NCBI GenBank assembly: GCA_013791885.1
Contig: VMSZ01000054.1
Coordinates: 1-32,408, forward strand
Direction: 5' to 3'
DNA: 32,408 bases
From: Sulfurimonas sp.
GTDB lineage: Bacteria; Campylobacterota; Campylobacteria; Campylobacterales; Sulfurimonadaceae
Notes under the pieces: model-generated
What the model saw: only the letters and a program-made list of their open reading frames with translations
Told to the model about the DNA's origin: nothing
The model's database searches: none
Shown: piece by piece, positions 5,873 through 31,994 of the stretch
Position numbering within the stretch: the first letter of the stretch is position 1
Layout: the number at the start of each line of letters is the position of its first letter
Position numbers and translations under genes: made by a program

Positions 5873-7579
5873 CTAAATTTCTAAATATCGCTTGCGTTTA
5901 TTTGGCTTTAATTTTTGTGTATCGACAAGAATAAATCCGTCTACACAGTTGTCAAAAGCTCTATCAATTCCAAAGTCCAGAAACTCTACACCGCCATCTT
6001 CGCATAAATCACTATATTGCTTATAGAGTGTTGGAATTGCATAACCTCTGACTTGAAGTTCATTTTTTAAAACAGCCAGGTCTTCTTCGTAACTTACTTT
6101 AGAAAAAAGCAGTTCATATTTTTGCGTTTTTTCATTACTGATAAAGTAGCTCTCTTTGTGTGTTACACTTCGAACTTTTGGCCCAAAATAGAGCATATAA
6201 AAATAGACAAGCAGAGATACCGATTCATCATCGTAAGCACGTGAAATACTTACCGGTCCAAACATATATCTAACATCCGGATTTGCTCTTAAATACGCAC
6301 CGATTCCCTGCCATAAATAATCAAGTGCCCGAGAGTTCCAATATTTAGGCTGTACAAAACTGCGACCGAGTTCCAAGCCACTCTCAAAGTATTTATTAAA
6401 ACTCTCTTGGTAATCAAAAAGTGTAGAAGTATAAAGCCCTTCTACATCCAGAGTCTCTTTCGCTTTTAAAACCCTGTACGAGCCTACTATCTCCAAATCT
6501 TTTTCATCCCACAAAATAATATGCTCATAGAAGAAATCAAACTCATCTAAATCCCTTTTCTTACCGCTTCCTTCTTTAACCTGTCTGAAGCTAATTTCAC
6601 GAAGTCTGCCTATTTCTCTAAGCAAAGCGCTTTCATCTTCATTGGAGTAAAGATAAATCTTTTTGCCATCGTTCGTTTCTCCAAGTAATTTTGCCTCTTG
6701 AAGTTCACGTTTCAACTCCTGTCTCTCCTCGGCAAGGGCGATGGAATTATGTGTTTTAAAAATACCCCTATGCTTTTTTGAGACAAGATAAAAGTGTTTT
6801 CTAAAGAGTTTCACTTTGTCTACCAAAGTAAGAGCAGGAATATTGTAATTTTCATAGGGTATGCTTTTTCCTATGCGAAAGCCTATTGTTTTATCATGAT
6901 ATTTAAACATTTCATGCGGTATTGTCGCGGTCGCGAGTGATTTACTCAGCATAGAAATCAAGTAAAAAAACTTAGAATTCTTCGCGTTTACATAGATAGG
7001 CAGAATCGGTGATTTTGTTTTTTGTGCCACTTTTAAAAAGCCGCTTCTCCATTTTGTATCTTTTATACCGTTTGGACGTGCACGACTCACTTCTCCTGAG
7101 GGAAAGATTATGACAGCCTGCTCTTTTTTCAGTGCATCATAAATGGACTCTACCGAATTTTTAGACATTTTTCCCTTGACATTATCAATTGGAATGAGCA
7201 CTTCGTTGAGATTTTCAAAAACGCTTAAAAAATTTGATGCAACTATTTTAATATCTTTTCTTACATTTTTAAGAATATGCATAAGTGCCAGTGCGTCAAG
7301 GGCCCCAAGAGGATGGTTCGCAATGATTACGACTCTTCCATAAGAGGGAATTCTTGATAGTTCATTTTGATTAATTGCTACGTCAATGTTGAAATATTCC
7401 AAGATAGACTCTATAAAACCATAGGTATCTTCATGCGTATGTGCTTTTAAAAACATATTAATCTCTTCTTCATGAGAGATTTTTTTAAACAAAGAGAGAA
7501 GGGATTTTTTCACTAAAGTCGGATATTTTTCTAGCGATGGATAGTTGTGGGTGAGATATTTTTCAACTGAAATAGCCAC
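5873..7579 (-). CDS. olsF: Bifunctional acyltransferase, OlsF-like (ornithine/amino-acid lipid synthesis)
   Basis: A 568-aa two-domain protein. Residues about 80-260 form a PlsC-type glycerolipid acyltransferase: NHPLGALD at 88-95 (catalytic His89 and Asp95, five residues apart rather than the usual four) and the FPSGE motif at 159-163. Residues about 320-520 resemble the GNAT-like OlsB/hemolysin-type N-acyltransferase: SYRVL at 367-371, ELGRSFV and the GPVSISR strand. This order (O-acyltransferase then N-acyltransferase) is that of OlsF, which makes ornithine lipid in one protein. The product here is inferred; another amino acid could be the head group. The start is GTG with AAAAGG 11 bp upstream. 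It follows the AAA ATPase gene by 205 bp, a gap that includes a palindromic element, and ends at a strong terminator. Confidence 0.75.
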   Translation of the reverse strand: MAISVEKYLTHNYPSLEKYPTLVKKSLLSLFKKISHEEEINMFLKAHTHEDTYGFIESILEYFNIDVAINQNELSRIPSYGRVVIIANHPLGALDALALMHILKNVRKDIKIVASNFLSVFENLNEVLIPIDNVKGKMSKNSVESIYDALKKEQAVIIFPSGEVSRARPNGIKDTKWRSGFLKVAQKTKSPILPIYVNAKNSKFFYLISMLSKSLATATIPHEMFKYHDKTIGFRIGKSIPYENYNIPALTLVDKVKLFRKHFYLVSKKHRGIFKTHNSIALAEERQELKRELQEAKLLGETNDGKKIYLYSNEDESALLREIGRLREISFRQVKEGSGKKRDLDEFDFFYEHIILWDEKDLEIVGSYRVLKAKETLDVEGLYTSTLFDYQESFNKYFESGLELGRSFVQPKYWNSRALDYLWQGIGAYLRANPDVRYMFGPVSISRAYDDESVSLLVYFYMLYFGPKVRSVTHKESYFISNEKTQKYELLFSKVSYEEDLAVLKNELQVRGYAIPTLYKQYSDLCEDGGVEFLDFGIDRAFDNCVDGFILVDTQKLKPNKRKRYLEI

Positions 7580-7692
7580 TGTTTTAGTTTCCTTTTAAAG
7601 AAAAATTTAATAGCGGTATTATGGATGAAATAGGTTACGAACTTGTTACGAGAATTAGATTTTATAATAATTGAAGGGTAGCACTAAAAATA

Positions 7693-16391: not shown

Positions 16392-18161
16392 TTATTTTGT
16401 CGGAAGATTATCAAATAAACCTATATCTGGGTCAAAGCTAGAGTCGGTAACTCTTGCTGATGCTGCAAATAGTGTGCTCGTATCAGTGTCATTACCAATC
16501 ATTTGATTTACTGGGTACACATTGCCATAAGAATCAATATTAAATACATGCCAGATATCATGATATCCTACACTGTCTGCCGTTGGAGCCGTGTAGGTAC
16601 GGGAAGTTCCATTAGCCGTTCTGACATTCACAACTGCGTTTCCTTCACTCATAGTGCCATTTCCAGCATAATGATGAATATAATATTTGTAGATTCCATC
16701 TGGTTCTACACTACACAAGGTAGTTGTTTCTGGCCCATAACCATCTACATCGTCACGGTCAAGTGTTGCTATTATTCCATCGGAACATGTTGTTTGTGTA
16801 TCTCCCGTATATTCACCTATTGTTCTTTTGTAATATGCGAGATGAAAACGTGAACCATTCGTATCCGGACCGGTTAAATGTGAATCTAAGTCCCTTGGAT
16901 CTGCACTCCAATCCAAAGTTATTACAGCGAATGCATCATTTAAAAGGTCGGATTCTGATGTATTAACATATATCGGAAGATTTTCTGTCGGTTCTGTTCC
17001 ATACACTTCTAATGTTACATATCTTGTATAATAAGCATTGTTAGTAATTTGAACAGTATATACACTCACAGGTAATTCTACAGAATATGCTCCATCAGCA
17101 TCTGTTGTAACTGTAGCTGTAGGGGTGCTTAAACGTTCATTATAACCTGCTCTGAAAACTAAAGTTGAATCTGCGACACCAGTATCTGTTGTTCTTCCAT
17201 CAAAAACCGATCCGCTTAATCTCGTAGTAGTATTTAACTCAGAATTAGGGAGCATAGGGATAGAACCGATACTTGTTGTAGTAAGCATAAATGCTGAAAC
17301 ATTTGGAATGTACTGACTCACATAGCCATCTGCTTCAACAGTCACATCATATACGCGCATTGTTTGTACTTGTGCAGTAAATGTGCCGTTAACATCTGTC
17401 ATTGTACTAATATTACGTTCTGTACTATCAGTGAGAGTTATTTGAGCACCGACAATATCACTGTCATCCTGCACATTATACACCCTGCCCGTAAAATCAA
17501 TATTTGAGACATTGATATCATAATTTATAGTATCCAAACTAGTGTTTTCATCTACACGAATAATCACATCATCTTCATTTAATTCTATGTCAAGTCCATC
17601 TAACAGAGCATCATATCCAGTATGATCAGCATTAAAAGTAGATGTAAAATGGTTAAAATCACTTACATTATTTTCTGTCATTCTCGCTGCTAGCGCTACT
17701 GATAATTGTTGCGATACAGCCGCAATTTCTGTATTCACATTTGCTGGAACAGTACTATTTTGAAACCTTCTTAACAATTGCGCTGCCCCACCTAGTAAAT
17801 TTAAAGTTTCCGCAGCTTGATTCACCATGTAGCTTGTCAATGGAGTCACATTTGTAGTTCCAGTTCTTGATGTTGAAAAGGAATAAAGCGTTGTTCCATC
17901 TCTATCAAGTACAGCTCTTAACATTATTGGCTGAGTTAATCCCCCTGTACTAACCGTGTATCTTCCTGATGAGAGAGAATGGCCCTCAACTACCCTACCA
18001 TTATTACCAACGAATGTAAGCGTTGCTGCTGCTCCGGCTCCAGTGGCTACAGTACCGCTCATTGTAGAATTTGTTACATCTGTAGTAGCAGAATCAGAAC
18101 CACAGCCAGTAAAAAAAATAAAAGACAATGACACGCCTAAAGTTAAAATCAACTTCTTCAT
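16392..18161 (-). CDS. Lipoprotein with two regulatory-like beta domains and a DUF2135-like C-terminal domain
   Basis: A 589-aa lipoprotein. The signal peptide MKKLILTLGVSLSFIFFTGC gives lipobox FTGC, with Cys20 lipidated. Residues about 35-215 are Ser/Thr/Ala-rich. Two segments (about 220-300 and 315-395) have the carboxypeptidase-regulatory-like pattern of a conserved Gly-rich turn followed by VTVEADGY or VQITNNAY strands. From about 410 (VITLDWSADPRDLDSHLTGP) to 560 it resembles the YfaP/DUF2135 domain, with LDWxxDPxDLDSHL and LDRDDVDGYGPET as key motifs. Function is unknown; the architecture suggests a surface or periplasmic adhesion or binding role. AAAGGAG precedes the ATG. Genes on both sides lie on unrelated units. 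Confidence 0.8.
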   Translation of the reverse strand: MKKLILTLGVSLSFIFFTGCGSDSATTDVTNSTMSGTVATGAGAAATLTFVGNNGRVVEGHSLSSGRYTVSTGGLTQPIMLRAVLDRDGTTLYSFSTSRTGTTNVTPLTSYMVNQAAETLNLLGGAAQLLRRFQNSTVPANVNTEIAAVSQQLSVALAARMTENNVSDFNHFTSTFNADHTGYDALLDGLDIELNEDDVIIRVDENTSLDTINYDINVSNIDFTGRVYNVQDDSDIVGAQITLTDSTERNISTMTDVNGTFTAQVQTMRVYDVTVEADGYVSQYIPNVSAFMLTTTSIGSIPMLPNSELNTTTRLSGSVFDGRTTDTGVADSTLVFRAGYNERLSTPTATVTTDADGAYSVELPVSVYTVQITNNAYYTRYVTLEVYGTEPTENLPIYVNTSESDLLNDAFAVITLDWSADPRDLDSHLTGPDTNGSRFHLAYYKRTIGEYTGDTQTTCSDGIIATLDRDDVDGYGPETTTLCSVEPDGIYKYYIHHYAGNGTMSEGNAVVNVRTANGTSRTYTAPTADSVGYHDIWHVFNIDSYGNVYPVNQMIGNDTDTSTLFAASARVTDSSFDPDIGLFDNLPTK

Positions 18162-24797: not shown

Positions 24798-27700
24798 ATG
24801 AAAACGAAAATAATCTTAAGCGCACTCGCTGCTGCAATGACAGCATCGCTTACTGGCTGTGGTGGTACAGACAACTCATCCACAAACACATATTATTATA
24901 CAGAAATAACAGACAGCTATAATACTACCAACACTGGTACTGGTACTGATACCAACACAACAACAGAGCCGACAAATGAACCGACTCTAGTTTCAAGTCT
25001 CATCACTGAAAATACAACATTATTTAAAGCAAACAGCCCTTACTTACTTACCGGCAGCCCTACTGTTGTAAAAAACGGTTCTATCCTTACAATTGAGCCA
25101 GGTGTTACTATCTATGGTCAGGAAAACTCTTATTTAGTTATCGCTAAAGGTTCTAAAATCATCGCTGATGGTACAGAAGAAGCCCCAATTATCTTCACAT
25201 CTGAAGCAACAATGCCTACGGCTGCTCCAGCTCTTGCTCCTTCGCTTGCTCCGGCGGCTGCTGGACAATGGGGTGGTGTAGTACTTTTAGGAAAAGCGAT
25301 AGTAAATGAAGCAAACCTCTTTTTTGAAGTTGACGAAGCAAATCCGGATTTCGCATACGGCGGAACAAACGATGCCGACAACTCAGGGATACTCAGAAAT
25401 GTAAAAATCCTTAATTCAGGTTTTGCGGTTGCTCCGGACAAAGAGGTAAACGGACTTTCATTATGTGGTGTAGGTTCTGAAACTATTGTAGATAATATTA
25501 CTGTAATAGACTCTGCTGATGACGGAATTGAAATCTGGGGTGGTTCTGTAAATCTTAACAATATTTCAATTACCGGTGCTCAGGATGATGGTTTTGACGT
25601 GGACAATGGTTACCATGGAACTGTTAAGAACCTCACAGTAACACAGACTGAACCGGGTTCTGCTCTTATTGAGATGACAAACAGCGGCGATGCTACTCTT
25701 CAAAGAACAGAATGGACTTTAGATGGATTTACTTTACAGGCATCCAATAAGCAAGTCGGTGAAGGCGGTATCTACTTTAAAGATGCGGATGTTGCAATTC
25801 ACGCTTCAAACGGTACGATAAACATGACTGACTCTAACGCTTCAGACTCAGGTTTACACAATAAGAAAGGTGTATATTCAGGTTCAACGCTTGAGAATAT
25901 TCTTGTTTTAGGAAGTGCTACGGTTGATAACAATATGACTTCTGGAGATGCCGCAGGCGTAACAGTTCTTGACACTATTGTTGAAGATGGTGCCGGTAAT
26001 ACTTTTGCAAGACCGACTATACTTCCGGCAGGTTCAAGCTTAAGCGGAGACATTATAGAAGACACACTATTGACTAAAGCCAACAGCCCGTACAAATTAG
26101 CTGGAAATAAGGTAAAAGTTAAAAATGGTGCAACTTTGATTATTGAGCCGGGTGTAACAGTATACGGTGAGTCAACAGCATACCTAATCATAACAAAAGG
26201 TTCAAAAATAAACGCAAGCGGTACTGCAACTGACCCTATTATCTTCACTTCAGAAGCTGCGTTTAACGGTGCGACAGGTGTTTCTGGTCAGTGGGGCGGT
26301 GTTACTATCCTTGGAGAAGCAATCACAAATGAGCCTGATACAATCAGATATGAAGTAGATGAATCAGATGCAGACTTCGCTTACGGCGGAACAAATGATG
26401 CGGACAACTCCGGTGTACTAAACTATGTAAAAATCCTTAACTCAGGTTTTGCGGTTGCTCCGGACAAAGAGGTAAACGGTCTTTCATTATGTGGTGTCGG
26501 TTCATCTACGATTGTTGACAATATCACTGTCTTAAACTCTGGCGATGACGGAATTGAAATTTGGGGTGGTGCTGTAAACCTGAACAATATCTCTATCACA
26601 GGTGCTGAAGATGACGGTTTAGACTTAGACAGCGGTTACCATGGAACAGTTAAAAACTTAGCTGTAACACAAGTTGCACCTGGTGCTGCTCTTATAGAGA
26701 TGACAAATCACGGTGATGCTACAAAACAGAGAACAAACTGGACTCTTGACGGCTTTACTTTAACAGCTTCTGCGAACCAAGTTGGTGAAGGCGGTATCTA
26801 CTTTAAAGATTTAGATGTAACGGCTACGATTAAAAACGGTACAGTTGACATGACTGCTTCTCCTGTTGCAAACAAAGCAGCAGGTTTAACAAATAGCTCT
26901 GGTGTCTTTGCTTCTCCGGTTTTTGAAAATGTAACGGTAAAAGGCAATCAATATGTAAATGTTGTAGCAAATAAAAAAGACGGTACAGTAAGCGACCTCG
27001 GAACAGCAACTCTGAACGCTGCGTTTGACGCAAACACAACAAACACTTACGAAGCCTACTATGAAACATTAGCGCAAGGTTCTGACTTGACTGGAGATAT
27101 CACTGTCAATACACTCTTGACAAAAGCGAACAGCCCATATAAATTGGCTGGAAACAAAGTAAAAATTAAAAATAACTCTATTCTCAAAATTGAGCCGGGC
27201 GTAACAATTTACGGTGAGTCACTAGCTTACCTAATCGTAACAAAGGGTTCAAAAATAAACGCAAACGGTACTCAGGCTGAGCCGATTATCTTCACTTCAG
27301 AAGCTGCGTTTAACGGTGCAACAGGTGTAGCTGGTCAATGGGGCGGTGTTACAATCCTAGGTCAGGCAATCACGAATGAGCCCGATACAATCAGATACGA
27401 AGTAGATGAGGCAGATGCAGATTTCGCTTACGGCGGAACAAATGATGCAGATAACTCTGGGGTACTTAACTATGTACAAATCCTTAACTCCGGGTATGCA
27501 GTTGCTCCGGACAAAGAGGTAAACGGACTTTCATTATGTGCTGTCGGTTCAGGAACTGTTGTTGACAACATTACTGTCTTAGATTCCGGTGATGACGGAA
27601 TTGAAATCTGGGGTGGTTCAGTAAACCTGAACAACATCTCTGTCACGGGTGCCCAAGATGACGGCTTTGATGTTGACAGCGGTTACCATGGAACAGTTAC

Positions 27701-28112
27701 AAACTTAGCTGTAACACAAACAGAACCTGGTTTTGCTCTTATTGAGATGACAAATCACGGTGATGCTACAAAACAAAGAACAAACTGGACACTTGACGGT
27801 TTTACTTTGACAGCTTCTGCAAATCAAGCGGCTGAAGGCGGTATCTACTTTAAAGACTTAGATGTAACCGCTACTATTAAAAACGGTACGATTGACATGA
27901 CTGCTTCTCCTGTTGCTAACAAAGCAGCTGGTTTAACAAATAGCGCTGGTGTAGTGTATGCTTCACCGGTTCTTGAAAATGTTAAAATTAAAGGAAGCGC
28001 AAGCGTTGATGTTGCTGCAAATAAAAAAGACGGTACAACGGCAGATGCCGGTACTGCAACTTTAAACGCAGCACTTGATGCGGATGTAACAAACACTTTC
28101 ACTTCATATTAA
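24798..28112 (+). CDS. 1104-aa lipoprotein with three tandem beta-helix-like repeats
   Basis: The signal peptide MKTKIILSALAAAMTASLTGC has lipobox LTGC; a Thr/Asn-rich linker (about 30-60) follows. Then come three units of about 350 aa starting near residues 74, 424 and 773. Each has IEPGVT(I/V)YG, a QWGGV strand, FAYGGTNDADNSG, APDKEVNGLSLC, DDGIEIWGG, DD(G)-D-GYHGTV and WTLDGFTL in the same order. The turn-rich, short-strand pattern fits a right-handed parallel beta-helix. Similar chains occur in surface proteins of marine bacteria, in Bacteroidetes with a T9SS tail that is absent here. Start: ATG 24798 with GGAGA 8 bp upstream; the frame extends back to a TTG at 24783 that overlaps the ribosome site. 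Function unknown; surface binding is plausible. A TonB operon follows. Confidence 0.88.
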   Translation: MKTKIILSALAAAMTASLTGCGGTDNSSTNTYYYTEITDSYNTTNTGTGTDTNTTTEPTNEPTLVSSLITENTTLFKANSPYLLTGSPTVVKNGSILTIEPGVTIYGQENSYLVIAKGSKIIADGTEEAPIIFTSEATMPTAAPALAPSLAPAAAGQWGGVVLLGKAIVNEANLFFEVDEANPDFAYGGTNDADNSGILRNVKILNSGFAVAPDKEVNGLSLCGVGSETIVDNITVIDSADDGIEIWGGSVNLNNISITGAQDDGFDVDNGYHGTVKNLTVTQTEPGSALIEMTNSGDATLQRTEWTLDGFTLQASNKQVGEGGIYFKDADVAIHASNGTINMTDSNASDSGLHNKKGVYSGSTLENILVLGSATVDNNMTSGDAAGVTVLDTIVEDGAGNTFARPTILPAGSSLSGDIIEDTLLTKANSPYKLAGNKVKVKNGATLIIEPGVTVYGESTAYLIITKGSKINASGTATDPIIFTSEAAFNGATGVSGQWGGVTILGEAITNEPDTIRYEVDESDADFAYGGTNDADNSGVLNYVKILNSGFAVAPDKEVNGLSLCGVGSSTIVDNITVLNSGDDGIEIWGGAVNLNNISITGAEDDGLDLDSGYHGTVKNLAVTQVAPGAALIEMTNHGDATKQRTNWTLDGFTLTASANQVGEGGIYFKDLDVTATIKNGTVDMTASPVANKAAGLTNSSGVFASPVFENVTVKGNQYVNVVANKKDGTVSDLGTATLNAAFDANTTNTYEAYYETLAQGSDLTGDITVNTLLTKANSPYKLAGNKVKIKNNSILKIEPGVTIYGESLAYLIVTKGSKINANGTQAEPIIFTSEAAFNGATGVAGQWGGVTILGQAITNEPDTIRYEVDEADADFAYGGTNDADNSGVLNYVQILNSGYAVAPDKEVNGLSLCAVGSGTVVDNITVLDSGDDGIEIWGGSVNLNNISVTGAQDDGFDVDSGYHGTVTNLAVTQTEPGFALIEMTNHGDATKQRTNWTLDGFTLTASANQAAEGGIYFKDLDVTATIKNGTIDMTASPVANKAAGLTNSAGVVYASPVLENVKIKGSASVDVAANKKDGTTADAGTATLNAALDADVTNTFTSY
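25017..26066 (+). repeat. Repeat unit 1 of the lipoprotein gene
   Basis: The anchor AACAGCCC is at 25032. The most diverged copy: it has an Ala/Pro-rich insert (TMPTAAPALAPSLAPAAA) before the QWGG strand and a different C-terminal third. It begins 1050 bp before unit 2. Confidence 0.85.
26067..27113 (+). repeat. Repeat unit 2 of the lipoprotein gene
   Basis: The anchor AACAGCCC is at 26082. Unit 2 is close to unit 3 along its whole length (shared AAFNGATGV, NEPDTIRYEVDE, TASPVANKAAGLTNS) and lies 1047 bp before it. Confidence 0.9.
27114..28109 (+). repeat. Repeat unit 3 of the lipoprotein gene
   Basis: The anchor AACAGCCC is at 27129. It ends at the stop codon, slightly shorter than unit 2. 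Nucleotide similarity to unit 2 includes long identical stretches, suggesting recent duplication or gene conversion. Confidence 0.9.
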
Positions 28113-28153: not shown

Positions 28154-28289
28154 AAATCTTTTTCACTTTTTCAAACACATACACTCTCAAAACACAATAA
28201 TTTTCTGTCGCCAAAAGGTAATCAAAAAGTAATTCTAAGGTAGCTAAAGAAGCATACTATTCGCTTATCTTAAACTATATGGGGAATCC

Positions 28290-29048
28290 ATGTCTAAAAT
28301 AACCGTTAGTATCGCTTTGAGTTTACTGCTAGGTGCTTCAGCAGTAACAGCAAACTCAGACAATATGGCTGAGTCGTTAATGAAACTTCGTGCTCAGGTT
28401 GAGCAGCTAGACAGTTCTATTACTGATGAAAAAGAGAATTACAGAGCTTCAATGAAATCACTTTTAAGACAAAAAGATGATTTAGAATCAATTGTAGCCC
28501 GTGAAGATCTGAAAATAAAACAGATAGAACAAGAACTTGCAAAAGTAAAACAAGAGATTACAGAAGGAAGCAAAAACTCTCTAGGCTTAAAACCGCTTTT
28601 AGAAAATGCTTTGACTCTTTTGGAAGAAAATGTGAAGGCTTCTTTACCGTTTAAAACGCAAGAGAGACTCGCAGACATCGCTCAAATAAAAGAGCAAATC
28701 CAAAATGACTTAGTCAGCCCGCAAAAAGGCTTGGCACTCACTTGGAATGCTTATGGCGACGCAATCAGAATGACGAAAGAAAACGGTCTATTTAAACAGA
28801 CTATCACGCTTGGCGGTAAAGACAAACTCGCTGAAGTAGCACGTATCGGAACCATGATGATGTACTTCAAAACTCCGGACAATGTTGTCGGCTATGCCAA
28901 TAAAGATGCCAAAGGCTGGTACTACAAAGAGGCTGTCTCTAAAGAAGAACAAGAACAAATTTTATATCTTTTTGATTCATTCAAAAAACAGATCCGTACA
29001 GGATACTTCACGCTACCAAATGCCATTGTAATGGGAGAAAACAAATAA
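28290..29048 (+). CDS. DUF3450-type periplasmic coiled-coil protein of the TtpC/TonB operon
   Basis: A 252-aa protein with signal peptide (MSKITVSIALSLLLGASAVTA) and a long charged coiled coil (about 25-95: LRAQVEQLDSSITDEKENY, SIVAREDLKIKQIEQELAKV). A compact C-terminal part ends in YFTLPNAIVMGENK. It fits the DUF3450 proteins encoded first in TonB2-type operons of Vibrio and related marine bacteria. It probably assists the TtpC energising complex in the periplasm; the exact role is not known to me. The ATG follows GGGGAATCC. The stop overlaps the next ATG by one base (TAATG). Confidence 0.85.
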   Translation: MSKITVSIALSLLLGASAVTANSDNMAESLMKLRAQVEQLDSSITDEKENYRASMKSLLRQKDDLESIVAREDLKIKQIEQELAKVKQEITEGSKNSLGLKPLLENALTLLEENVKASLPFKTQERLADIAQIKEQIQNDLVSPQKGLALTWNAYGDAIRMTKENGLFKQTITLGGKDKLAEVARIGTMMMYFKTPDNVVGYANKDAKGWYYKEAVSKEEQEQILYLFDSFKKQIRTGYFTLPNAIVMGENK

Positions 29049-30361
29049 TGAAATTCATACTAACTATCTTACTTGCACTCAGTGTAAGTCTTTTTGGTGC
29101 AAGTGATACTGATTTAGAACGTGCCTATGCTAAAGAGTTCGCTTACCTTAAAGCACAAAAAAATATGTTGCAAACTAGACTGGACTCTGTAAAAGCTGAA
29201 CAAAATAAGAAAATAAGTTCTGCTAAAAATGATTTAGAACAATTACAATCTCTTGTTTTACAAAAAAATGCTTTGAGTGAAAAACTCGCAAATGATTTGT
29301 ACCGTTCTCAGCAAAATGCTATGAATATGACGGATGACACTGCCATAATTGAAGCTGTCATGATGCAGTCGACTAGCTCTTTAAAACCTTACGGTATTGA
29401 GATAACAGTTGATAAAGATAATTATCAGCCGGCACTCGAAGAAGTTTTTACTCAAAGCAACAAACTTATTCGTGATTTAAGTTCACTCACTGTAAGCCAA
29501 GGGAAGTTTTACAACTTAGACGGTTCTCAGGAGAGCGGTTCTATCGTTAAAGTCGGGAACATCGCAAGCTATGGCGTTTCACCTAAAATATCTGCTGCTT
29601 TAGTTCCGGCAGGAGAAGGAAACTTTAAAGTTTGGAATGCTCCTGAAGCTGCTTCAACTGCTGAGAGTCTTAAAAAATTAGACCTCTCAAAACCTTTAAA
29701 CATTTTCATTTATGAAAACGCTGCTCAAGAGATAGAGAATGTACAAGAGCAGAGTGTTGTAGATGTTATTAACTCTGCGGGAATCATTGGTTGGATAATT
29801 GTTGCAATTGGCGCTGTTGGTCTTTTACTTGCCCTGCTTCGTAGTATCTTTTTGGCAAGTGCGAGTTCTTCAACTGCTAACTTAGCTGCATCTACACTTG
29901 CAACACTTTTAGAAAAAGGTGTTGATGGTTCTCTAGAATACCTAAAAACAAAAAAAGGCTCAACTGCCCGTGTATTGAAGGCGACTATTCGTAACCTTGA
30001 CAGAGACCGTGAGCACATTGAAGATATCGTAGCTGAGTCTATTTTACATGAGAGCGGAAGACTGGACAAATTCGGTTCTATTATTATGGTTATTGCAGCT
30101 GTAGCACCTCTTTTGGGTCTTCTTGGAACAGTTACGGGAATGATAGCTACCTTTGACATTATTACAGAATTTGGAACGGGTGATCCGAAGTTACTATCTG
30201 GCGGTATTTCTATAGCTCTTGTAACTACAGAACTTGGCCTTATAGTTGCCATTCCTATCTTAATGATAGGCAATATGCTTGGTGGTTGGGCTGAGAGAGT
30301 GAAGGACAATATGGAACATTCTGCTCTTCACCTTATCAACGAGTACAACAAACAGAAGTAA
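29048..30361 (+). CDS. ttpC: TtpC-like MotA/TolQ/ExbB proton-channel protein with periplasmic extension
   Basis: A 437-aa protein with signal peptide (MKFILTILLALSVSLFGA). A periplasmic coiled coil covers about 20-90 and an extension runs to about 235. The MotA/TolQ/ExbB channel module has membrane helices near 245-268, 344-366 (VIAAVAPLLGLLGTVTGMI) and 386-411 (GISIALVTTELGLIVAIPI). This is the architecture of TtpC, the fourth component of Vibrio TonB2 systems. It should draw on proton motive force, together with ExbB and ExbD, to drive TonB. GGGAGAA precedes the ATG. The gene ends 3 bp before exbB. Confidence 0.9.
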   Translation: MKFILTILLALSVSLFGASDTDLERAYAKEFAYLKAQKNMLQTRLDSVKAEQNKKISSAKNDLEQLQSLVLQKNALSEKLANDLYRSQQNAMNMTDDTAIIEAVMMQSTSSLKPYGIEITVDKDNYQPALEEVFTQSNKLIRDLSSLTVSQGKFYNLDGSQESGSIVKVGNIASYGVSPKISAALVPAGEGNFKVWNAPEAASTAESLKKLDLSKPLNIFIYENAAQEIENVQEQSVVDVINSAGIIGWIIVAIGAVGLLLALLRSIFLASASSSTANLAASTLATLLEKGVDGSLEYLKTKKGSTARVLKATIRNLDRDREHIEDIVAESILHESGRLDKFGSIIMVIAAVAPLLGLLGTVTGMIATFDIITEFGTGDPKLLSGGISIALVTTELGLIVAIPILMIGNMLGGWAERVKDNMEHSALHLINEYNKQK

Positions 30362-30364
30362 AAA

Positions 30365-30958
30365 ATGGAATTCATAACGCAATTTTTAGAGTATATGCAA
30401 AGCGGCGGTTACGTCATGTGGCCGCTTGCAGCCTCAGTTGTCGTACTTTGGTACGCCTTGGGTTTTCGCTTTCATTCACTTAAACGCGGTTCAAATGCGA
30501 ATGTCCGTAACTTGGTAAGAAAATATGACACGGGTGCCAGAACAGTTCCAAGGGGAGTTATTGACTCTGCTATTGTTGAAGCACTCTCTATTGTAAATGT
30601 TTATGGCCGAAAATCAACAAGCAGAAAGTATCTTGATGATGCTTTTAATAAGTACAAACTAGAGACAACTCAGTTTGAAACACTTATTAAAACCATTGTT
30701 GTAGCTGCACCTCTCATAGGTCTGTTAGGTACTGTTATAGGAATGATTGAAACATTTGACTCTTTGGCAAGTGCTTCACTTTTTTCTCAAACAGGCGGTA
30801 TTGCGGGTGGTATTTCACAAGCACTTTTTACAACACAGTTTGGGCTTGTTGTTGCAGTTCCCGGCTTAATCATAGGAAAAATCCTTGACAGAAAAGCCGA
30901 CACAATGGAACTTGAACTTGAGCAAATCAAAGATATATTATGTTCAGAAGGAGTATAG
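30365..30958 (+). CDS. exbB: ExbB-like proton channel subunit
   Basis: A 197-aa MotA/TolQ/ExbB protein with three membrane segments at about 15-35, 108-128 and 144-172. The channel motifs are APLIGLLGTVIGMIETFD (115-132) and GGISQALFTTQFGLVVAVPG (148-167), the helices that line the proton path around ExbD. It is shorter than TtpC and lacks the periplasmic extension, as for ExbB2 of Vibrio. The Shine-Dalgarno AGAAG overlaps the end of ttpC. Its stop is directly followed by the exbD ATG. Confidence 0.93.
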   Translation: MEFITQFLEYMQSGGYVMWPLAASVVVLWYALGFRFHSLKRGSNANVRNLVRKYDTGARTVPRGVIDSAIVEALSIVNVYGRKSTSRKYLDDAFNKYKLETTQFETLIKTIVVAAPLIGLLGTVIGMIETFDSLASASLFSQTGGIAGGISQALFTTQFGLVVAVPGLIIGKILDRKADTMELELEQIKDILCSEGV

Positions 30959-31363
30959 ATGCGTTTTAGACAAAAAAAATCGCAAGAGAGTACTGTAGAT
31001 ATGTCACCGCTTATCGATATGGTTTTTATCCTATTGATATTTTTCATGGTGAGTTCTACATTTGTAAAAGATATGAAACTTGACTTGAACCGTCCGGGTG
31101 CATCTTCAGCTTCAAAAGCTTCAAGCAAAGTTATCCGCGTTTACATAGATAACGTCGGTGAAACGTATGTAGACGGTCAGCCTGTTAAAACTTGGGCAAT
31201 TCAGGGCAAACTCAGAGATATGTTACGTGCTTCAACCGAAAAATCAGTACTTGTTGTAACAGATGAGACTGTTGCCGTTGAAAAGCTTATAGACGTTGTT
31301 GACCAGTGCCGCCTAAGTGGTGCTAAAGACGTGGCAGTAGCGACTGAAAAAGAAGTTGGCTAA
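30959..31363 (+). CDS. exbD: ExbD/TolR-family protein
   Basis: A 134-aa protein: short cytoplasmic N-terminus, one membrane helix (MVFILLIFFMVSSTF) and a periplasmic domain. D20 in SPLIDMVF is the conserved aspartate that is protonated in the helix (equivalent to ExbD Asp25). The periplasmic part ends in DVVDQCRLSGAKDVAVAT, typical of the family. GGAG lies 5 bp before the ATG, overlapping the exbB stop. Confidence 0.95.
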   Translation: MRFRQKKSQESTVDMSPLIDMVFILLIFFMVSSTFVKDMKLDLNRPGASSASKASSKVIRVYIDNVGETYVDGQPVKTWAIQGKLRDMLRASTEKSVLVVTDETVAVEKLIDVVDQCRLSGAKDVAVATEKEVG

Positions 31364-31364
31364 G

Positions 31365-31994
31365 GTGAAAAATATAAAAAACCATCTCAAAGCATCTCTA
31401 TGGATGCTATTTGGTATCTTTTTTGTATTTAATATAGTTATTTTGATGAACAGTGAAAGCTCACTGCTCAATCAAGAGAAGAAACAAGAGAATGCAAATT
31501 TTGAGATTGCAAGAATTGCAAAACCAAAGCCCGAACCAAAACCTAAGCCTAAGCCAAAACCTGAACCTGCCAAAGCTAAAAAAAGCACTGCCGCACCTAG
31601 CATCAGTTCAAGCCTCAGCGGTATAGACACCGGTCTGGATGCCTTCATGAGCAGCGATTTGAGTATGGACGACACACTCCTCGGTGATGTAAGCAAGAAT
31701 GTTGTCATGAGTGAAGACTCAGTGGATGAAGCACCGAAACCGACACACAGAGCAGCTATGGAGTATCCGGCTAAAGCAAGAAAATCCGGAATCACGGGTT
31801 ATGTTCTCATGAACCTTCTTGTAAGTAAAGACGGGGATGTTGAAAAAGTAAAAGTTTTAGAGTCTCAGCCAGCCGGTCTTTTTGACGAAGTAGCCATCGC
31901 CGGTGTTAAAGAGTGGAAGTTCAAACCTGCTCAGTACCAAGGCCAGCCGGTAAAAGTCTGGGCGAAACAAAAAATCAGTTTTAATCTTCAATAA
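31365..31994 (+). CDS. tonB: TonB energy transducer
   Basis: A 209-aa protein. The N-terminal membrane anchor is LWMLFGIFFVFNIVILM. A Pro/Lys spacer (KPKPEPKPKPKPKPEPAK, about 50-67) crosses the periplasm. The C-terminal TonB domain is YPAKARKSGITGYVLMNLLV ... DEVAIAGVKEWKFKPAQYQG. I prefer the GTG at 31365, which has AAGAAG upstream and gives MKNIKNHLK; the TTG at 31356 lies inside exbD with poor spacing. It is short, as TonB2-type proteins are. It couples the ExbB/ExbD/TtpC motor to outer-membrane receptors, none of which is in the window. Confidence 0.93.
   Translation: MKNIKNHLKASLWMLFGIFFVFNIVILMNSESSLLNQEKKQENANFEIARIAKPKPEPKPKPKPKPEPAKAKKSTAAPSISSSLSGIDTGLDAFMSSDLSMDDTLLGDVSKNVVMSEDSVDEAPKPTHRAAMEYPAKARKSGITGYVLMNLLVSKDGDVEKVKVLESQPAGLFDEVAIAGVKEWKFKPAQYQGQPVKVWAKQKISFNLQ

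Follow-up and report, generated by a model that had tools for sequence, protein, structure and literature searches.

Lipoproteins of the ElpS type stand out in Caulobacter and Flavobacterium starved of phosphate, and the family has no assigned activity. ElpS of Caulobacter crescentus (CC_0170) is a surface-exposed lipoprotein induced by phosphate starvation, and its gene lies beside those of a TonB-dependent transporter (TBDT) and of type II secretion; its overproduction raised phosphatase activity in culture supernatants, and ElpS itself showed none (PMC2996285). The lipoproteins FI, FII and FIII of Flavobacterium johnsoniae (Fjoh_3856, Fjoh_0546) are described as ElpS-related, FI and FII are induced by phosphate depletion and encoded beside TBDTs, and FII also lies beside phoBR (PMC8115612). 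Here, we analysed a 32,408-nt stretch of Sulfurimonas sp. (the whole of contig VMSZ01000054.1, assembly GCA_013791885.1; hereafter the window), in which one gene encodes a lipoprotein of three tandem β-helix units. With a probability of roughly 70%, we consider this protein to be the ElpS-like outer-membrane lipoprotein partner of a phosphorus-scavenging TBDT that has a dedicated motor. The lipoprotein family itself is already known from phosphate-starved bacteria, and the window protein represents it in a version with several modules; at the Sulfurimonas loci, the family, a dedicated TonB complex, a receptor and the pst genes are brought together.

The protein was filed as ElpS-like because homologues of its unit sit in the elpS arrangement, a TBDT gene stands at the end of the same operon, and a lipoprotein signal with a lipobox can be read in the translation (MKTKIILSALAAAMTASLTGC). 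Identity of a window unit to the Sphingomonas and Indioceanicola homologues is 42.5% and 37.2% over ∼180–190 amino acids (E 5e-29 and 5e-24), and both of these adjoin TBDT and type II secretion genes, which is the arrangement of elpS. Homologues in Pseudoalteromonas adjoin a TonB2-type operon and a TBDT, and those in Hymenobacter and Aureibacter (Bacteroidota) adjoin a TBDT, as do those in Leptospiraceae; all except these last were found on plasmids, including those of Sphingomonas and Indioceanicola. The likeness to ElpS consists of a lipoprotein gene beside a TBDT gene, ElpS being tied to phosphate starvation (PMC2996285). However, ElpS is about 50 kDa and so probably has one unit, whereas the window protein has three; ElpS is released by a type II secretion-dependent step, whereas genes for such secretion are absent from the Sulfurimonas island of operon and phosphate genes; and the window protein has its own TonB complex, whereas descriptions of ElpS mention no dedicated TonB2-type operon beside it. 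FII is assigned to the pectin-lyase fold class (IPR011050), a resemblance to the predicted β-helix of the window protein, but FI, FII and FIII belong to Bacteroidota and tandem units are not reported for them in the part of PMC8115612 that was available. The TonB2 system of Vibrio vulnificus, with TtpB2, TtpC2 and TtpD2, has the same gene order, DUF3450 (TtpB)–TtpC–ExbB–ExbD–TonB–TPR (TtpD), but serves iron-siderophore uptake, is induced by iron limitation and has no β-helix lipoprotein described in its operon (PMC6957404). SusCD and PusCD of Bacteroidota likewise pair a TBDT with a partner lipoprotein, and PusCD is induced by phosphate depletion (PMC8115612); SusD and PusD are nevertheless a different protein family from the window protein with its predicted β-helix, which gave no SusD match in Pfam, and the likeness is one of working and not of membership.

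The main clue to the function of the lipoprotein is its TonB and phosphate context, which the original prediction, right in its description of the gene itself, had missed. The lipoprotein gene is the first gene of its operon, followed by DUF3450/TtpB, TtpC, ExbB, ExbD, TonB and TPR genes in the order of TonB2-type (Ttp) operons (Table 1). The window contig and contig C46 of the same genome are adjacent, as shown by an 8-bp overlap of their ends (ACGGCTTG) and by the TPR frame, which continues as in Sulfurimonas sp. STC_53 (locus L002), the nearest relative used for comparison. Beyond the TPR gene, C46 encodes a TonB-dependent receptor, a PhoB-like regulator (L065 4045–4740; its best NCBIfam match is PhoB, below the cut-off of that family), a 429-aa protein without a family, PstS, two PPK2 proteins, a Na/Pi cotransporter, PHO4, PstC, PstA, PstB and PhoU. 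In STC_53, where the operon is whole, the gene after TPR encodes a 1065-aa TonB-dependent receptor that includes a CarboxypepD_reg domain, and an OmpR-type regulator comes next; in both genomes, the receptor gene that accompanies ElpS-like lipoproteins stands at the operon end. A literature search for a phosphate, TonB or lipoprotein system of this kind in Sulfurimonas found none relevant in the collection searched.

This order, from the lipoprotein gene through TonB and TPR to the TBDT and response regulator, is kept in many Sulfurimonas genomes and recurs, complete or partial, in other genera and in a further family of the taxonomic order. In two genomes of another genus (L095/L102 and L096/L103), the lipoprotein, TonB genes, receptor and pst genes occur together, and in another family (L098, L099) the lipoprotein, TonB genes and receptor do so. 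Among 100 Sulfurimonas genomes, 26 have both the lipoprotein family and a DUF3450 protein above cut-off, one has the lipoprotein only, three have DUF3450 only and 70 have neither (Fisher p 1e-19). Moreover, pstS or pstCAB-phoU lies near the operon in 9 of the 14 genomes checked (G048, G085, G009, G031, G076, G073, G028, G026 and, across the contig join, the window genome G000), for which a naive binomial calculation on eight cases gives 2e-12, related genomes not being independent.

Regulation by phosphate was approached with a motif trained solely on sequences upstream of pst genes. The motif learned is the direct repeat TGTAAcCatttTGTAAcc, whose step is 11 bp and whose shape we take to be that of a PhoB box. 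Sequences upstream of 15 lipoprotein-family genes are enriched in this motif relative to 131 control upstreams (p 3e-8). The weak site before the window lipoprotein gene is found at the same position in the sister species STC_53.

Several points weigh against a phosphorus-scavenging partnership. The site of the lipoprotein gene itself reaches a score matched by 6.9% of the control upstreams, and two family members (L041 and L067) have no recognisable Pho-box-like site. Solitary paralogues (L043, L044 and L047) lie away from any TonB operon, and the Pseudoalteromonas clusters have no phosphate genes within the ∼20 kb read. Both the co-occurrence and the linkage tests count related genomes as independent, and the comparison with ElpS, FI and FII is one of published descriptions and of the gene arrangement of homologues.

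The three-unit lipoprotein put forward in the original prediction was confirmed by the lipobox LTGC, by the NSPY landmark and by an independent repeat scan, each unit being ∼350 amino acids long. NSPY occurs at residues 79, 429 and 778, which reproduces the proposed steps of 1050 and 1047 bp, and the repeat scan recovered three copies with a core spacing of 1026 and 1047 bp, the former value reflecting the deviating length of unit 1 at its C-terminal end and near the Ala/Pro insert. The reading frame is open over 24783/24798–28112 (+), and ATG 24798 is the likely start because a GGAGA ribosome-binding site precedes it. The β-helix fold, also predicted earlier, was supported by modelling: AlphaFold2, run on unit 3 with eight homologous units, returned a right-handed β-helix (mean pLDDT 79, pTM 0.85), of which ∼250–290 residues superpose on known β-helices in VIA-align 2 (Z 20–24). 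On this model, the protein qualifies for the right-handed parallel β-helix superfamily; its Pfam Beta_helix match (19.3 bits) is below cut-off, Foldseek alone gave no match with E < 0.001, and the family profile found no sequence match in the PDB. The full-length model shows three separate helix modules, low-confidence linkers and 60 disordered N-terminal residues, with pTM 0.39, and therefore does not fix the relative orientation of the modules.

Since the structural matches range over enzymes, tailspikes and NosD, the fold alone does not tell the function. It does raise the alternative that the protein is an extracellular carbohydrate-active enzyme of the polygalacturonase, lyase or epimerase type, with catalytic acidic motifs, which frees glycan pieces, perhaps phosphorylated, for the TBDT. 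AlgE4 and AlgG alginate epimerases, tailspikes and polysaccharide lyases are strong matches in the Z range given above, and a weak polygalacturonase resemblance of FI and FII is remarked by the authors of PMC8115612. However, right-handed β-helices generally align like this, and NosD, which is an accessory protein of a transporter, reaches Z 22.6; Pfam and NCBIfam gave no enzyme family above cut-off for the lipoprotein; and the neighbours are phosphate genes and not glycan-degradation genes. We regard this enzyme as unlikely, though it survives better than the other alternatives.

Across 31 homologous units, and across eight proteins from Campylobacterota, Spirochaetota, Alpha- and Gammaproteobacteria and Bacteroidota, the residues Asp176, Asp177, Glu180, Gly183, Gly184, Asp198, Asp199 and Asp202 (unit 3 numbering) are invariant, which pins down a small set of acids in the family; in the full-length protein, the acids of unit 3 are Asp932, Asp933, Glu936, Asp954, Asp955 and Asp958. 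The two acidic motifs are spaced by 22 residues, about one helix turn, and should thus stack on one face of the β-helix. The proposal of a ligand or metal site in each unit is upheld as regards the acids, their invariance being its support, while the ligand part stays putative. The Cys of NGLSLC, proposed as part of the same site, is present in all three window units and otherwise limited to a few close relatives; most homologues carry Val, Ala, Phe or Gly instead, and the Cys was ruled out as a family site.

A somewhat less probable alternative still is an accessory role like that proposed for ElpS: the lipoprotein would deliver no ligand to the receptor but would activate a secreted phosphatase or hold it in place. 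The increase of supernatant phosphatase activity by overproduced ElpS, itself inactive, speaks for such a role (PMC2996285), but none of the identified island genes was recognised as encoding a phosphatase, several island open reading frames having no assigned family, and the constant neighbour of the lipoprotein is a TBDT with its motor. Least probable is a metal-scavenging lipoprotein (for iron or another cation) on a TonB2-type system with coincidental pst neighbours: TonB2/TtpB/TtpC/TtpD of Vibrio vulnificus are an iron-transport system (PMC6957404), the conserved residues are acidic and one Pseudoalteromonas cluster lies near siderophore genes, but pst genes are linked in the majority given above and in a second genus, PhoB-like regulators stand in the operon, the family is enriched in Pho-box-like sites, and related lipoproteins elsewhere are induced by phosphate depletion or starvation (PMC8115612; PMC2996285).

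In the favoured reading of a TBDT partner, a PhoB-like regulator would turn the island on at low phosphate, this copy of the lipoprotein gene presumably included. Acylated Cys21 and a flexible linker would hold the lipoprotein, probably surface-exposed, at the outer membrane, and each β-helix unit would offer a stacked Asp/Glu patch. This patch, probably via a divalent cation, may hold a phosphorus-containing ligand or help a phosphatase. The lipoprotein would work with the TBDT of the operon end, perhaps in physical contact, powered by its own TonB2-type motor (TtpB, TtpC, ExbB, ExbD, TonB and TtpD); the receptor would import the product, and PstSCAB and the other phosphate transporters would finish uptake. 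Tandem units may increase valency, and gene conversion within the gene would keep them alike. A wider picture, drawn by analogy and in our view tentative and rather doubtful, is that of a phosphorus-specific TonB-dependent route with its own motor, in which the β-helix lipoprotein is the counterpart of SusD and recurrent rounds of duplication and conversion tune how many ligand-binding units there are. Concrete tests follow, of the ligand of the unit and of the passage of phosphorus across the outer membrane in sulfur-oxidising Campylobacterota.

The tandem unit has been repeatedly copied and homogenised. Units 2 and 3 of the window protein share 82.7% of amino acids and 82.7% of nucleotides, and unit 1, described from the start as diverged, has 63–66% amino acid identity to either. 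The long identical stretches reported for units 2 and 3 hold for the protein but not for the DNA, where the longest identical run is 32 bp. At synonymous sites, which the original prediction had named as a test of the likeness between these units, 206 of 282 codons are the same, counted at identical amino acids with Met and Trp excluded. The orthologous units of the window and STC_53, which also has three, share 175 of 300 and 166 of 291 codons (p 1e-4 and 4e-5 against 206/282). Thus, units 2 and 3 agree more closely than do orthologous units of the sister species, and these codon counts support gene conversion or duplication, as had been proposed, as the probable source of their likeness. Between the window and STC_53, the outer ends of units tend to retain orthology and the core is homogenised; within STC_53, units 2 and 3 are identical over 228 core residues and over an exact DNA run of 300 bp, which in this metagenome assembly could partly be an assembly effect.

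Homogenisation within one protein is stronger in several other species than in the window. In L036 and L038, whose genomes are assembled in one or two contigs, protein identity between units rises to 99.3% and fourfold-site identity to 98.7–100%; in L037, from a genome of the same assembly quality, fourfold-site identity is 87–95%. In a tree of 40 units, those of the same protein cluster together in several species. Unit number, predicted to vary between strains, varies here between species: there is one unit in L003, whose low-coverage assembly might have collapsed it, and in others; two in L035, L038, L039, L095, L099 and L100; and three in the window, STC_53, L036, L037 and one Pseudoalteromonas protein.

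Table 1. Coordinates of the lipoprotein gene, its parts and its operon in the window
Feature	Position	Strand	Evidence or remark
Three-unit beta-helix lipoprotein (ElpS-like), 1104 aa	24798..28112	+	Open reading frame, profile matches, AlphaFold2
Signal peptide, lipobox LTGC, acylated Cys21	24798..24860	+	Read in translation
Unit 1, diverged; Ala/Pro insert near 25212-25262	24993..26012	+	Profile match 633 bits
Unit 2	26019..27059	+	Profile match 700 bits
Unit 3	27066..28109	+	Profile match 702 bits; AlphaFold2 beta-helix
Acidic motif DDGIEIWGG, unit 1	25518..25544	+	Invariant D,D,E,G,G in 31 units and four phyla
Acidic motif DDGFDVD, unit 1	25584..25604	+	Conservation in 31 units and four phyla
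Acidic motif DDGIEIWGG, unit 2	26544..26570	+	Conservation in 31 units and four phyla
Acidic motif DDGLDLD, unit 2	26610..26630	+	Conservation in 31 units and four phyla
Acidic motif DDGIEIWGG, unit 3	27591..27617	+	Conservation in 31 units and four phyla
Acidic motif DDGFDVD, unit 3	27657..27677	+	Conservation in 31 units and four phyla
Pho-box-like direct repeat TGTAACTAAACTGACACT, weak, 89 bp before start codon	24709..24726	+	6.9 bits
Two overlapping Pho-box-like sites, 11-bp step, weak, upstream of DUF3450	28206..28234	+	7.4 and 7.9 bits
DUF3450 protein (TtpB-like)	28290..29048	+	PF11932 E 1.6e-32
TtpC-like protein, C-terminal MotA/TolQ/ExbB domain	29048..30361	+	PF01618 E 3.5e-28
ExbB	30365..30958	+	PF01618 E 1.8e-24
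ExbD	30959..31363	+	PF02472 E 2.2e-29
TonB	31356..31994	+	PF03544 E 1.4e-21
TPR protein (TtpD-like), truncated by contig end	32004..32408	+	Remainder at start of contig C46 (L065 1-760)

The solitary paralogues have single units (L043 10118–11395, L044 9945–11171 and L047 7527–8948), and two of them adjoin EAL-domain genes. At L041 (11797–17872), a prepilin-type gene and others stand directly beside a one-unit family member; by analogy, this is possibly a secretion or pilus locus, recalling the type II secretion neighbours of elpS. The genus also has a second class of DUF3450 proteins, scoring ∼240 bits against Pfam (G004:C6, G041:C42, G073:C38:227464 and others), the phosphate-linked class scoring 80–117 bits, which suggests that two TonB2-type systems exist in Sulfurimonas.

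Between the TonB operon and pstS, a putative porin (Porin_5) is encoded at L063 1397–2587 (−), and the 429-aa protein of C46 at L065 4850–6139 (−); the latter may be a phosphate porin because of its 22-bit Pho-box-like site. Elsewhere in the window, the 589-aa product of 16392–18161 (−) matches no family apart from a carboxypeptidase regulatory-like domain. The strongest Pho-box-like site of the window (19.3 bits, 7633–7650 (−)) precedes the gene at 5873–7579 (−), which encodes an acyltransferase/acetyltransferase fusion (Acyltransf_2 and Acetyltransf_5) like the ornithine-lipid synthase OlsF. Ornithine lipids of Vibrio cholerae are induced at low phosphate, according to PMC12186959, and an OlsF-like gene behind such a site fits a phosphate-starvation regulon, which suggests phosphate-controlled lipid remodelling.

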